Assembly (NCBI GenBank): GCA_013314735.1
Contig: JABUFD010000001.1
Coordinates: 434,001-498,000, forward strand
Origin: Anaerolineae bacterium
Lineage (GTDB): Bacteria > Chloroflexota > Anaerolineae > Anaerolineales > Anaerolineaceae
Reading direction: 5' to 3'
Length of the DNA stretch: 64,000 bases
Made by a program: the position numbers and the translations under genes. This document shows, in pieces, positions 60,507 to 63,352 of the stretch (position 1 is the stretch's first letter; every line of letters begins with the position of its first letter). The notes under the pieces were generated by a model that was not told the DNA's origin, did not search any database, and saw only the letters and a program-made list of their open reading frames with translations.

Positions 60507-61883
60507 TCAGTTGCTGTGTGATAAACAGTCCCTGGCATATACCAGCTGCTGTTGCACAGCGGTTGGCGCGGTCCCTCCCCAGGCGATATGGCGTTGGACC
60601 GATTGGGAGGCGGACAACATCTCGTATACCCAGGACCCGAACAGTGGTGAAATATTCTGCCATTCCTGTAATGGCAGATGCTGGAATGGGGTGCCGGTTT
60701 CCTCTGCTTTTTTAACCACGGCAGCGACAGCATGATGCGCCTGGCGAAAGGGCAGGCCCCGTTTTACCAGTTCATCCGCCAGATCGGTGGAGACCATGTA
60801 AGGATGCAGGATTTCTTCCGCGCGATCCTGGTTGATTTCCAATGATCGGATCACCCCTGCCATCACTTTTAACATCAGGTCCAAAAGGTCAAAGGATGTA
60901 AACACCAGCTCTTTATCTTCCTGCAGGTCTTTGTCATAGGCGGATGGCATTGCCTTCAGGACAGTCATCATTGACATCAATTTACCAAGAATGATTCCGC
61001 TTTTCCCACGCACCAGTTCAAGCGGATCCGGATTTTTCTTTTGGGGCATGATGCTGCTGCCGGTGGAGAAGGCATCTGCCAGGGTGATCAGTGAAAATTC
61101 CTGGGTGGAAAACAGGATCAGCAATTCCGCCATTCGGCTGAGGTGGGTAGCGCACAGGCTGGCAATAAAGAGGAACTCCGCTGCGAAATCCCGGTCACCA
61201 ACCGCATCAATTGAATTGGGGGTGATTTCCTGAAAACCCAGTTGCTGAGCAAGGGCTGCCCGATCAATTGGGAAGGAAGTGCCGGCGAGTGCCGCAGACC
61301 CGAGGGGCAGGACGGATGTTCGAGCAGCGGACTGGTGAAAGCGCTGCCGGTCGCGACTCAAAGCCCAGAAATGGCTGAGCCACCAATGTGAGAGCAGGAC
61401 TGGCTGCGCCTGTTGAAGGTGCGTATAGCCGGGGATGATGATGCCGAAATCAAACTCTGCGCGTGCCAGGATCGTTTCCTGAAGTGACTCCAGACTGCCA
61501 TCGAGGTACTGCAACGCCTCCAGCGTCCACATCCGAAAATCGGTGGCTACCTGGTCATTGCGGGAACGACCGGTGTGGAGTTTTTCGCCGGCTTTCCCGC
61601 ACAATTCCACCAACCGGCGCTCGACAGCTGTGTGAATGTCCTCATCGCCAGGGGAAAATATGAACGTCTCCGCGGTGAATTCGGCGGCGATGCTTTCCAA
61701 TCCGGTGAGGATTTTCTCCAAATCGCCATCATCGATTAAGCCGGCAGTATGAATCGCCTGTGCCCAGGCGATGCTGCCGCGTACATCCTGCTGCGCCATT
61801 CGTTGATCGATCGGCAATGAATGGTTCAACAATTCCGCCCATTGATCGAGGTTGCCATCCAGGCGTCCTGTCCATAATTTCAT
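60507..61883 (-). CDS. argH: Argininosuccinate lyase
   Basis: This 458-residue protein is read from the ATG at 61883, which has a perfect AGGAGG. It belongs to the fumarase/aspartase superfamily: KLWTGRLDGNLDQWAELLN at the start, HTGRSRNDQVATD near 110, and the signature SSIMPQKKNPDPLELVRGK (split as GSSIMPQKKNPD, near 280) with the flexible catalytic loop. It splits argininosuccinate to arginine and fumarate, the last step of arginine synthesis. It begins 22 bp after argG and shares its attenuated promoter. Confidence 0.95.
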   Translation of the reverse strand: MKLWTGRLDGNLDQWAELLNHSLPIDQRMAQQDVRGSIAWAQAIHTAGLIDDGDLEKILTGLESIAAEFTAETFIFSPGDEDIHTAVERRLVELCGKAGEKLHTGRSRNDQVATDFRMWTLEALQYLDGSLESLQETILARAEFDFGIIIPGYTHLQQAQPVLLSHWWLSHFWALSRDRQRFHQSAARTSVLPLGSAALAGTSFPIDRAALAQQLGFQEITPNSIDAVGDRDFAAEFLFIASLCATHLSRMAELLILFSTQEFSLITLADAFSTGSSIMPQKKNPDPLELVRGKSGIILGKLMSMMTVLKAMPSAYDKDLQEDKELVFTSFDLLDLMLKVMAGVIRSLEINQDRAEEILHPYMVSTDLADELVKRGLPFRQAHHAVAAVVKKAEETGTPFQHLPLQEWQNISPLFGSWVYEMLSASQSVQRHIAWGGTAPTAVQQQLVYARDCLSHSN

Positions 61884-61905
61884 TACTAGACCTCCTGCAG
61901 TTAAC

Positions 61906-63156
61906 TCAGTCGCGGACAATGGTTTTGGTGTCCAGGGGTTGGATATCATCCGCGCCCAGCAAAGCACGTACTTTCATCGGCAGACCGAATAGGCGGATAA
62001 AGCCTGCAGCGTCGCTCTGGTTGTAGACCTCGTCCTCACCGAAGGTAGCGAACTCAGGATGGTAGAGGCTATTGGGGCTTTTCCGACCCTGGACGATCAC
62101 ATTGCCCTTATACAGTTTCAGGCGCACAACCCCGCTGACCACTTTTTGGGTTTCCGAAAAGAAGGCATCGAGTGATTTCCGCAATGGGGTGAACCATTGG
62201 CCAAAATACACCAATTCGGCATACTTTAATGCCAGCAGGTCTTTATAGTGGATGGTTTCACGGTCAATCGTGATCGATTCCAATTCAGAATGGGCGTGGA
62301 CCAGAATGGTACCGCCGGGGGTTTCATATATACCACGGGATTTCATTCCCACCAGGCGGTTTTCAACCATATCGCAAATCCCGATCCCGTGTTTTCCGCC
62401 CAATGTATTCAACTGTTCAATCAGTGCAGCCGGCGAGAGCGGTTCCCCATTCAGCGCGATCGGGTTGCCTTCGAGGAATGTGATTTCGATCATCTCAGCG
62501 GTGTCCGGTGCCTGTTCTACCGGGGTTGTCATACAATACAGCCCGTCCTGAGGGGCGTTGTCAGGGTCTTCAAGATCGGCGCCTTCGTGTGACAAATGCC
62601 ACAGGTTGCGGTCGCGGCTGTACAGGGATGGGTTGCAGGCAGGAAATTCGATCTGATGGTCTTTGAGGTATTGCATGGCGTCCTCGCGGCTCTTGATGTG
62701 CCATTCACGCCATGGGGCGATGACCTGCAAACGCGGATTGAGGGCTGTGAAGGTCAGTTCAAACCGCACCTGGTCGTTACCTTTTCCAGTGCAGCCGTGC
62801 GCGATGGCCTGAGCGCCCTCTTCTTCTGCCACTTTGACCAGGTATTTGGCAATTAACGGACGAGCAATGGAGGTTCCCAGCAAGTACTTGCGCTCATAAA
62901 TCGCACCGGAACGGATCATGGGAAAAATGTAATCTTTGGCGAATTCTTCTTTGAGGTCAAACACGACCAGTTTTGACGCTCCGCTTTTCAGCGCACGGGC
63001 TTCAAGGTTATCCAGCTCAACCACGCCCTGCCCCACGTCCGCGGTAACTGCAATGACTTCGCACTCATAATTTTCAATCAACCAGGGGATGATAACCGAG
63101 GTATCCAAACCGCCAGAATAGGCCAGAACAACTTTGTTGATTTGCGGGTGTTTCAT
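61906..63156 (-). CDS. argG: Argininosuccinate synthase
   Basis: This 416-residue protein starts [22 protein letters not shown], with the PP-loop SGGLDTS that binds ATP. It also has [17 protein letters not shown] and the C-terminal domain of the family. It joins citrulline and aspartate with ATP. GGAG lies 7 nt before the ATG. Upstream are a terminator, competing hairpins and an arginine-rich leader peptide, described as separate features, so transcription of argGH is expected to depend on charged tRNA-Arg. Confidence 0.96.
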
Positions 63157-63189
63157 TTATTTCTCCATTCACATGATGTTGGTAAAAAT

Positions 63190-63215
63190 AAAAAGCTCCT
63201 CCCAGATGGAGGAGC
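63190..63215 (-). terminator. Attenuator terminator in the argG leader
   Basis: On the minus strand GCTCCTCC (63215-63208), loop ATCTG and GGAGGAGC (63202-63195) form an 8-bp GC-rich stem followed by TTTTT-A-TTTTT. It lies 34 bp upstream of the argG ATG, inside the transcribed leader, so it must stop some transcripts before the operon. Confidence 0.88.
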
Positions 63216-63272
63216 CAGCAAGCTTAACACTGTAAAACGCCGATCATAACACCATCTGGATATCCATGTGTT
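63202..63272 (-). promoter_or_regulatory. Competing hairpins of the argG attenuator
   Basis: Minus-strand CCAGATGG (63259-63252) is exactly complementary to CCATCTGG (63209-63202), which spans the loop and inner stem of the terminator; pairing would act as antiterminator. The same upstream segment can instead pair with AACAC-AT (63272-63266) through ATGGTGTT (63255-63248). The two alternatives share bases and exclude each other, as in classical 1:2 / 2:3 / 3:4 attenuation. Confidence 0.75.
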
Positions 63273-63318
63273 GTGGTCGGGTTCGTCGGAAAATAGAGAA
63301 TGCCGTTTTTATCGCCAT
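63244..63318 (-). CDS. Arginine leader peptide of the argGH attenuator
   Basis: This 24-codon frame (ATG 63318, TGA 63246-63244) reads MAIKTAFSIF, then RRTRP, then QHMDIQMVL. It has three Arg codons within four, all CGA, immediately upstream of the first hairpin arm. Shortage of charged tRNA-Arg should stall the ribosome there, mask the arm at 63272-63266 and let the antiterminator form; rapid translation to the stop would allow the terminator. The -10 ends 6 nt before the ATG, so the peptide is probably translated from a leaderless messenger. No homologue can be expected for so short a peptide; the case rests on arrangement. Confidence 0.8.
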   Translation of the reverse strand: MAIKTAFSIFRRTRPQHMDIQMVL

Positions 63319-63324
63319 GCTGTG

Positions 63325-63352
63325 ATTCTAACAACCTCTTGTGCTTTGTCAA
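63325..63352 (-). promoter_or_regulatory. Promoter of the argG leader (extended -10)
   Basis: TTGACA (63352-63347), 16 nt, then TAGAAT (63330-63325) preceded by TGT, an extended -10. The start point would fall at or next to the leader-peptide ATG at 63318. Confidence 0.75.

Follow-up and report, generated by a model that had tools for sequence, protein, structure and literature searches.

The argGH genes of the Anaerolineae bacterium analysed here are very likely governed by a classical ribosome-mediated transcription attenuator, one that would be specific for arginine and read from a leaderless or nearly leaderless leader; we base this on sequence comparison and fold modelling. Computation establishes the parts of the element, their conservation, a codon bias, the covariation of the arms and, at the level of the group, a fold that depends on the position of the ribosome. 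A first-pass annotation of the window (the whole 64,000-nucleotide stretch of DNA that was analysed) had interpreted the region before argG as an attenuator. Conservation in the family, covariation and the group fold model all support that interpretation; nothing experimental does so.

In the proposed mechanism, transcription would start on the leader ATG or a few bases ahead of it, and a ribosome would initiate at the 5' end without a Shine-Dalgarno (SD) sequence. When charged tRNA-Arg is plentiful, the ribosome would clear the CGA codons, reach the stop codon and cover arm 2, so that the terminator (arms 3 and 4) would form and transcription would end before argG. When arginine is short, the ribosome would pause at the CGA codons and prevent the hairpin in which these codons and arm 2 lie; left unpaired, arm 2 would bind arm 3, the terminator could not form, and argGH would be transcribed. 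The start site, translation, pausing, termination and the response to arginine are all inferred, with no expression data.

Layout and conservation of the arginine leader

The features of the locus are collected in Table 1. The coordinates that the first-pass annotation had given for promoter, frame, CGA codons, arms and terminator are all correct on the minus strand. Its observation that 63259-63252 is exactly complementary to 63209-63202 was borne out, and the genes that it named behind the terminator, argG and argH, both score over their NCBIfam cut-offs. The promoter matches the consensus at 11/12 positions, and the leader ATG, at 63318, lies 6 nt past the -10 box. The three CGA codons occupy 63288-63286, 63285-63283 and 63279-63277, and the stop codon 63246-63244. 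The terminator has a 9-pair stem, and its double T-run reaches 63184. The argG ATG is at 63156, and the longest frame of argH overlaps the end of argG. Divergent from argG, a plus-strand gene that we presume to be dnaA-like extends from 63887 to the right end of the window, and its frame runs on to about G000:C9:499258, beyond the window. The fragment inside the window had no NCBIfam match, and neither of two DnaA-box patterns occurs between argG and this gene.

Table 1. Features of the argGH leader region, in window positions
Feature	Position	Strand	Basis
Promoter, sigma-70-type, TTGACA-16-TAGAAT, extended -10 TG	63325..63352	-	Motif scan; relatives also have one beside the leader start
Leader peptide frame, 24 codons + stop, MAIKTAFSIFRRTRPQHMDIQMVL, predicted leaderless or nearly so	63244..63318	-	Open reading frame; counterparts in relatives; no SD-like motif before it
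Putative regulatory Arg codons, CGA CGA ACC CGA (Arg-Arg-Thr-Arg)	63277..63288	-	Sequence; codon bias in relatives; tRNA-Arg(UCG) gene in own genome
Predicted hairpin of 2nd and 3rd CGA codons with arm 2, would compete with the antiterminator	63235..63284	-	Full-length fold prediction; own-versus-swapped pairing in relatives
Arm 2, CCAGATGG, putative antiterminator 5' strand	63252..63259	-	Exact complement of 63209-63202; swap test, 69 leaders
Arm 3, CCATCTGG, putative antiterminator 3' strand, overlaps terminator 5' stem and loop	63202..63209	-	Complementarity; swap test; folds
Predicted intrinsic terminator, stem 63216-63194, then double T-run	63184..63216	-	Terminator scan; leader-argG terminator also in relatives
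argG, argininosuccinate synthase, first gene under the proposed control	61906..63156	-	NCBIfam TIGR00032, 495.7 bits, cut-off 268.2
argH, argininosuccinate lyase	60507..61967	-	NCBIfam TIGR00838, 547.2 bits, cut-off 279.5

Does the window alone make the case? A 901-base region held 1 promoter-like site, and shuffles of it held a mean of 1.6; hence, the promoter by itself is not beyond chance. The terminator scan reported 2 overlapping terminator-like sites at the locus (shuffle mean 1.1), and the leader alone is only modestly special (fold z -2.41; 2/200 shuffles equally good). As far as sequence can tell, the element exceeds chance through its conservation in relatives and not through single-sequence statistics.

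ArgG was found in 64/147 genomes of the same family. The family set comprised 62 argG loci, some of them second copies within one genome, and 61 had at least 300 bases upstream; L055 was too short and was left out. On reading these 61 loci, we saw that argG is preceded in 60 by a short frame with Arg-Arg as a minimum, and that 57 have a perfect-stem terminator behind the Arg leader (55 curated leaders plus L038 and L062). Three loci (L026, L028 and L050) carry an imperfect hairpin with a T-run in place of the perfect-stem terminator. The sole exception in the family is L047, where argG stands behind an acetyltransferase-like gene with neither Arg leader nor terminator. The pattern that would have refuted the earlier interpretation, namely relatives without the frame, or without its Arg codons, in which the hairpins are nevertheless kept, was not seen in the family. 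Of the 55 curated family leaders, 35 carry the motif as RxRR, 4 as RRxR, 5 as RxxRR and 11 as RR only. Leader starts and terminators for the codon, promoter-spacing, fold and swap analyses were curated by hand with arginine in view, and L038, L062 and L047 were not curated for folding.

Outside the family but within the same class, the Arg leader was found at 23/66 argG loci by the looser of the two scans described below and at about 28 by reading. The five further loci recognised by reading are L143, L147, L157, L159 and L176; three have RSKR. This class set is not random, being made up of the 28 loci that best match the window's ArgG and 40 chosen stretches, with two unusable; as background, 247/297 genomes of the class have ArgG. 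At several class loci without the leader, argG stands behind an acetyltransferase-like gene, which was named by eye. Two Chloroflexales loci (L087, L096) had no Arg frame by scan, and in other phyla, mostly Firmicutes, 0/71 argG loci had an Arg leader in either blind scan. Other families of the class also show another sub-type (L164, L177, L179, L181, L196, L197), in which the Arg leaders end in a tail like PDHPSG. Most of these have a CGUCUGG-type arm 2, and several have a second hairpin past the terminator.

Blind scans addressed the amino-acid specificity of the leaders. The strict scan looked for frames of 8-60 codons, opening with ATG or GTG, that have the end of a promoter 5-11 nt ahead of them and a terminator behind, and asked for at least three of one amino acid in six. 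In the family, 44/61 loci had the promoter-frame-terminator architecture and 38/61 had an Arg cluster, while the next amino acids, Pro, Phe and Leu, reached 3/61 each. The controls gave 0/61 (one shuffle per locus) and 0/71 (other phyla), and in the class outside the family the Arg cluster was found at 14/66 loci. With the promoter condition removed (the looser scan), Arg scored at 45/61 family loci and the next amino acid, Ser, at 8/61; shuffles scored in 1/305 cases. Two tests of membership in the attenuator class are met by these leaders: clustered codons for the operon's own amino acid in a short leader frame, and an intrinsic terminator between that frame and the first gene.

Arm pairing, ribosome position and leader start

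From 85 curated leaders we dropped the 4 without a perfect-stem terminator (L026, L028, L050, L176) and L147, which had no usable terminator by scan. Removal of 11 near-duplicates from the remaining 80 left 69 for the fold model and the pairing swap tests. Own arm 2:arm 3 duplexes average -14.3 kcal/mol, compared to -11.3 kcal/mol for swapped ones, and 0/20,000 permutations were as good as the own pairing; the relatedness of the sequences was not modelled. Double-centred residuals favour the own pair in 61/69 leaders. The own duplex was not better than the mean swap in 14/69 leaders with arm 2 held and in 9/69 with arm 3 held. Pairing between the Arg-codon arm and the sequence after it was likewise better for own than for swapped partners. 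A further membership test, a mutually exclusive antiterminator kept by covariation, is met. No base-pair counting was done on alignment A1, which holds 12 similar leaders. Counted from the first base of the final Arg codon, the start of arm 2 lies at a median distance of 23 nt (quartiles 21, 24); by the dimensions of the ribosome, a point about 23 nt past the codon lies just outside a paused ribosome.

The fold model took the nascent RNA up to the terminator loop and masked everything behind the ribosome front. Averaged over the 69 non-redundant leaders, occlusion of the 5' arm of the terminator came to 0.39 with no ribosome, 0.67 when an Arg codon occupied the A site and 0.29 with the ribosome at the stop codon; at Arg codons with the arm-2 region shuffled, it was 0.46. 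Occlusion at Arg codons was greater than at the stop in 65/69 leaders and greater than without a ribosome in 64/69. It lay above the shuffled mean in 59/69 leaders and not above it in 10/69. Shuffles equalled the observed occlusion in 826/4140 cases, and hence single leaders are often not significant. The window's own leader is weak in this model, with 0.66 at Arg, 0.64 without a ribosome and 0.52 at the stop, and 16/60 shuffles were as good. The test that a ribosome at the Arg codons exposes the antiterminator arm and one at the stop covers it is thus met by the group in the fold model, with the window copy weak. The first-pass annotation had claimed that stalling at CGA exposes the antiterminator: what stands of this is the group result, with its maximum at the Arg codons in the fold model and its covariation of arms 2 and 3, while the individual copy that prompted the claim carries it only weakly and stalling itself remains inferred. 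Full-length folds of four leaders favoured the terminator in nearly every ribosome state; hence, the model requires co-transcriptional folding.

A promoter scoring at least 8 was found for 74/80 curated leaders and was lacking for 6/80. The best promoter ends 6-10 nt before the start codon in 54 of these 74 leaders, with peaks at 7 and 10; in the remaining 20 it lies 12-38 nt away. When the same 13-nt stretch and pattern were applied to both, an SD-like motif preceded 2/80 leader starts versus 71/80 argG genes, where the argG count allows any in-frame candidate start. A looser pattern gave 6/80 leaders versus 78/80 argG genes. One study, in its accessible part, takes a -10-like signal some 10 bp ahead of a start codon as a sign of a leaderless gene and reports leaderless genes in 4 of 12 Chloroflexi genomes (PMC3160421). 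In the genome that carries the window, a perfect -35/-10/ATG pattern with such spacing occurs at 25 sites versus 2 for the reversed pattern, although not all 25 need be leaderless genes. With a spacer of 6 nt between the -10 box and the ATG, the 5' end is predicted to fall on the A of the ATG or no more than a few bases away. The recurring spacing of the promoters and the scarcity of SD-like motifs support the earlier suggestion that the leader is apparently read from a leaderless messenger; there are no 5'-end data.

Could the Arg-rich peptide in the exit tunnel, and not uncharged tRNA, be the route by which arginine or some other ligand acts on the ribosome? Nascent-peptide arrest of this kind is exemplified by the fungal arginine attenuator peptide, and the RxRR spacing of 35/55 curated family leaders has a regularity that a mere run of codons would not call for. 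However, the x and the flanking residues vary, as does the order of the motif (RRTR in the window), and the motif can begin at codon 5 or 6 (L180, L006), which is early for a peptide that acts in the tunnel. Nor would sensing by the peptide call for the strong codon bias described below, and we regard arrest as very unlikely. Attenuation could also be real but proceed from an ordinary 5' UTR, with a promoter further upstream. The 20/74 leaders whose best promoters are further away would fit this, as would the SD-like motifs of 2/80 (strict) or 6/80 (loose) leaders. Yet the best promoter ends 6-10 nt before the start codon in 54/74 leaders, 78/80 have no SD-like motif, and a -10-like box about 10 bp before the start is read as leaderless in the available portion of PMC3160421; an ordinary 5' UTR therefore seems to us improbable without being ruled out.

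A T-box, or another metabolite- or tRNA-binding RNA, might stand in place of a translated leader, since arginine genes are under T-boxes in other bacteria according to the accessible text of PMC1262725. Here, however, the conserved element is a reading frame with in-phase Arg codons. The leader in the window matched no Rfam family at E up to 5, and 17 relative loci gave, at gathering score, only a tRNA gene and nothing in the leaders. The test of a match to a T-box covariance model was therefore not met in the window or in the 17 relative loci, and we consider such an RNA extremely unlikely. Finally, a promoter-like site, a terminator-like site and short frames can each arise randomly in a stretch such as this one, so that the terminator might merely belong to an upstream unit and the short frame have no function. 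This explanation, to which we give next to no credence, is contradicted by the conservation of the element, its specificity for one amino acid and the covariation of its arms.

Codon choice, ArgR and other leaders of the same layout

A ribosome-mediated attenuator, the reading that we prefer, would sense arginine at the codons of its motif. The 167 motif Arg codons of the 55 curated family leaders comprise 96 CGA, 49 CGT, 20 CGC and 2 CGG, with no AGA or AGG. CGA thus makes up 57% of the leader motif codons versus 4% (24/622) in the argG stretches of the same loci. Scanning 40 of the 48 tRNA places in the organism's own genome, we found tRNA-Arg anticodons UCU, CCG, UCG, GCG and CCU (the genes are at L318, L329, L333, L337 and L350, with UCG at L333); the 8 places not scanned singly are 82 bases or longer. 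No tRNA-Arg(ACG) was among the 40 of 48. We had considered that CGA, CGT and CGC form one set read by an inosine tRNA-Arg(ACG) and dropped this idea because the scanned tRNAs include no ACG anticodon. As a separate observation, CGN decoding in this genome apparently proceeds without the usual inosine tRNA, as judged from those 40 of 48 places. The bias towards CGA and CGT may be partly structural, because the Arg-codon arm pairs with the sequence after it; decoding and structure are both possible drivers. Together with the tRNA-Arg(UCG) gene, the CGA bias offers a test case for isoacceptor-specific sensing, the theory of which is treated in the accessible part of PMC1183508.

The ArgR N-domain was over the cut-off in 0/147 family genomes, the organism's own included (control 8/14), and weak sub-threshold matches occurred in 9/147. 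In the textbook, arginine synthesis is a pathway under the repressor ArgR and not under an attenuator. The membership test of control by ArgR and ARG boxes is not met, since ArgR is absent over the cut-off. ArgJ was found in only 1/71 family genomes, and ornithine carbamoyltransferase was over the cut-off in 59/61. The organism's own genome had no match to models of the LeuA dimer domain or the TrpE N-domain. These absent models suggest that amino-acid metabolism in the family, or in this genome, is partly auxotrophic or otherwise unusual. No Arg leader (at least three Arg in 6 residues) was found before ornithine carbamoyltransferase in 12 family loci; upstream of that gene, the organism's own genome has only weak Arg frames.

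Leaders of the same layout occur elsewhere in this genome. Outside the window, a His leader, MKSQVVFQMHHHHSQPQCA, is followed by a terminator and hisG (L225/L271, G000:C9 about 394845). HisG was found in 27/81 family genomes searched, and at 27/27 family loci (L225/L271, L272-L297) the gene follows a frame that looks leaderless and in which three or more residues of six are His; 26 of these loci have a terminator by scan. The best promoter, at 7 to 12 points, ends 7-10 nt before the start codon in each of these leaders, among promoters sought only 5-11 nt ahead of it. A second Arg leader, MVKSAESRRRNELYHLPQ, stands with a terminator before the gene for an amino-acid ABC transporter substrate-binding protein, likewise outside the window (L228/L241, G000:C9:505868 onward). 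The best NCBIfam match of this protein, lysine/arginine/ornithine binding, is below that family's cut-off. Both leaders are among the genome's 25 promoter-ATG pattern sites. The transporter Arg leader is not widely conserved: the transporter had a match in 50/81 family genomes, and of the 30 family loci that were read, only the organism's own scored clearly, with weak candidates at, e.g., L256, L261 and L263. Behind the transporter gene lie permease-like and ATPase-like frames, which were named by eye. We also observed a short frame, MMNILTMTPQHDKKAKHTLL, beside a promoter and with a terminator, before another putative substrate-binding protein (L218, G000:C5:16723).

Relation to known attenuators and meaning for the family

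Classical attenuators control the trp, his, leu, thr, phe and ilv biosynthetic operons. The argGH leader shares with them a leader frame rich in codons for the product, competing hairpins, an intrinsic terminator before the first gene, and covariation; unlike them, it is arginine-specific, apparently leaderless and in Chloroflexota. Leaderless polycysteine short ORFs of mycobacteria, described by Canestrari in 2020, reportedly attenuate operon genes. Judged by the title of that study only, they resemble the argGH leader as leaderless short frames with amino-acid codons, but they concern cysteine and mycobacteria.

Arginine is also sensed by other leaders, here as described in the accessible parts of the respective papers. 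Two consecutive Arg codons sense arginine in orf34, the leader of Salmonella speF; in contrast to argGH, orf34 controls ornithine decarboxylase via Rho, RNase G and sequestration of the ribosome-binding site, and the authors found no Rho-independent terminator there (PMC6386406). The Arg-codon leader rbfL of Staphylococcus aureus, like the argGH leader, senses arginine limitation, but its target is translation initiation of a biofilm regulator, which it represses when arginine is limiting (PMC13009471). The His-leader attenuators predicted in Firmicutes were likewise predicted by comparative genomics and lie outside Proteobacteria, but they concern histidine, and the available portion of that paper includes no Chloroflexota case among them (PMC9413887). 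A survey of Actinobacteria, as far as its accessible text goes, reports no conserved RNA element upstream of arginine operons and names T-boxes as the arginine RNA regulators elsewhere (PMC1262725). The word arginine is absent from what was available of the main text of a broad terminator survey (PMC2965389). The open-access PMC literature yielded neither an attenuator in Anaerolineae nor, in any bacterium, an arginine attenuator that places an intrinsic terminator ahead of a biosynthetic operon; most subscription papers lie outside that literature, so this is weak evidence of absence.

The argGH element would extend classical attenuation to arginine and to Chloroflexota, in a family without a detected ArgR. 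It raises a testable question: how would leaderless initiation keep the ribosome close enough behind the polymerase for attenuation? We lean, by a little, towards the broader view that in Anaerolineaceae and their relatives leaderless leader-peptide attenuators form a general amino-acid sensing layer, for arginine at argGH and at the ABC transporter of the organism's own genome and for histidine at hisG, and that this layer assumes the role played elsewhere by ArgR. If this is true, then without a 5' UTR the leader ribosome could load as soon as the RNA emerges, and the coupling of ribosome and polymerase would be built in from the first codon.
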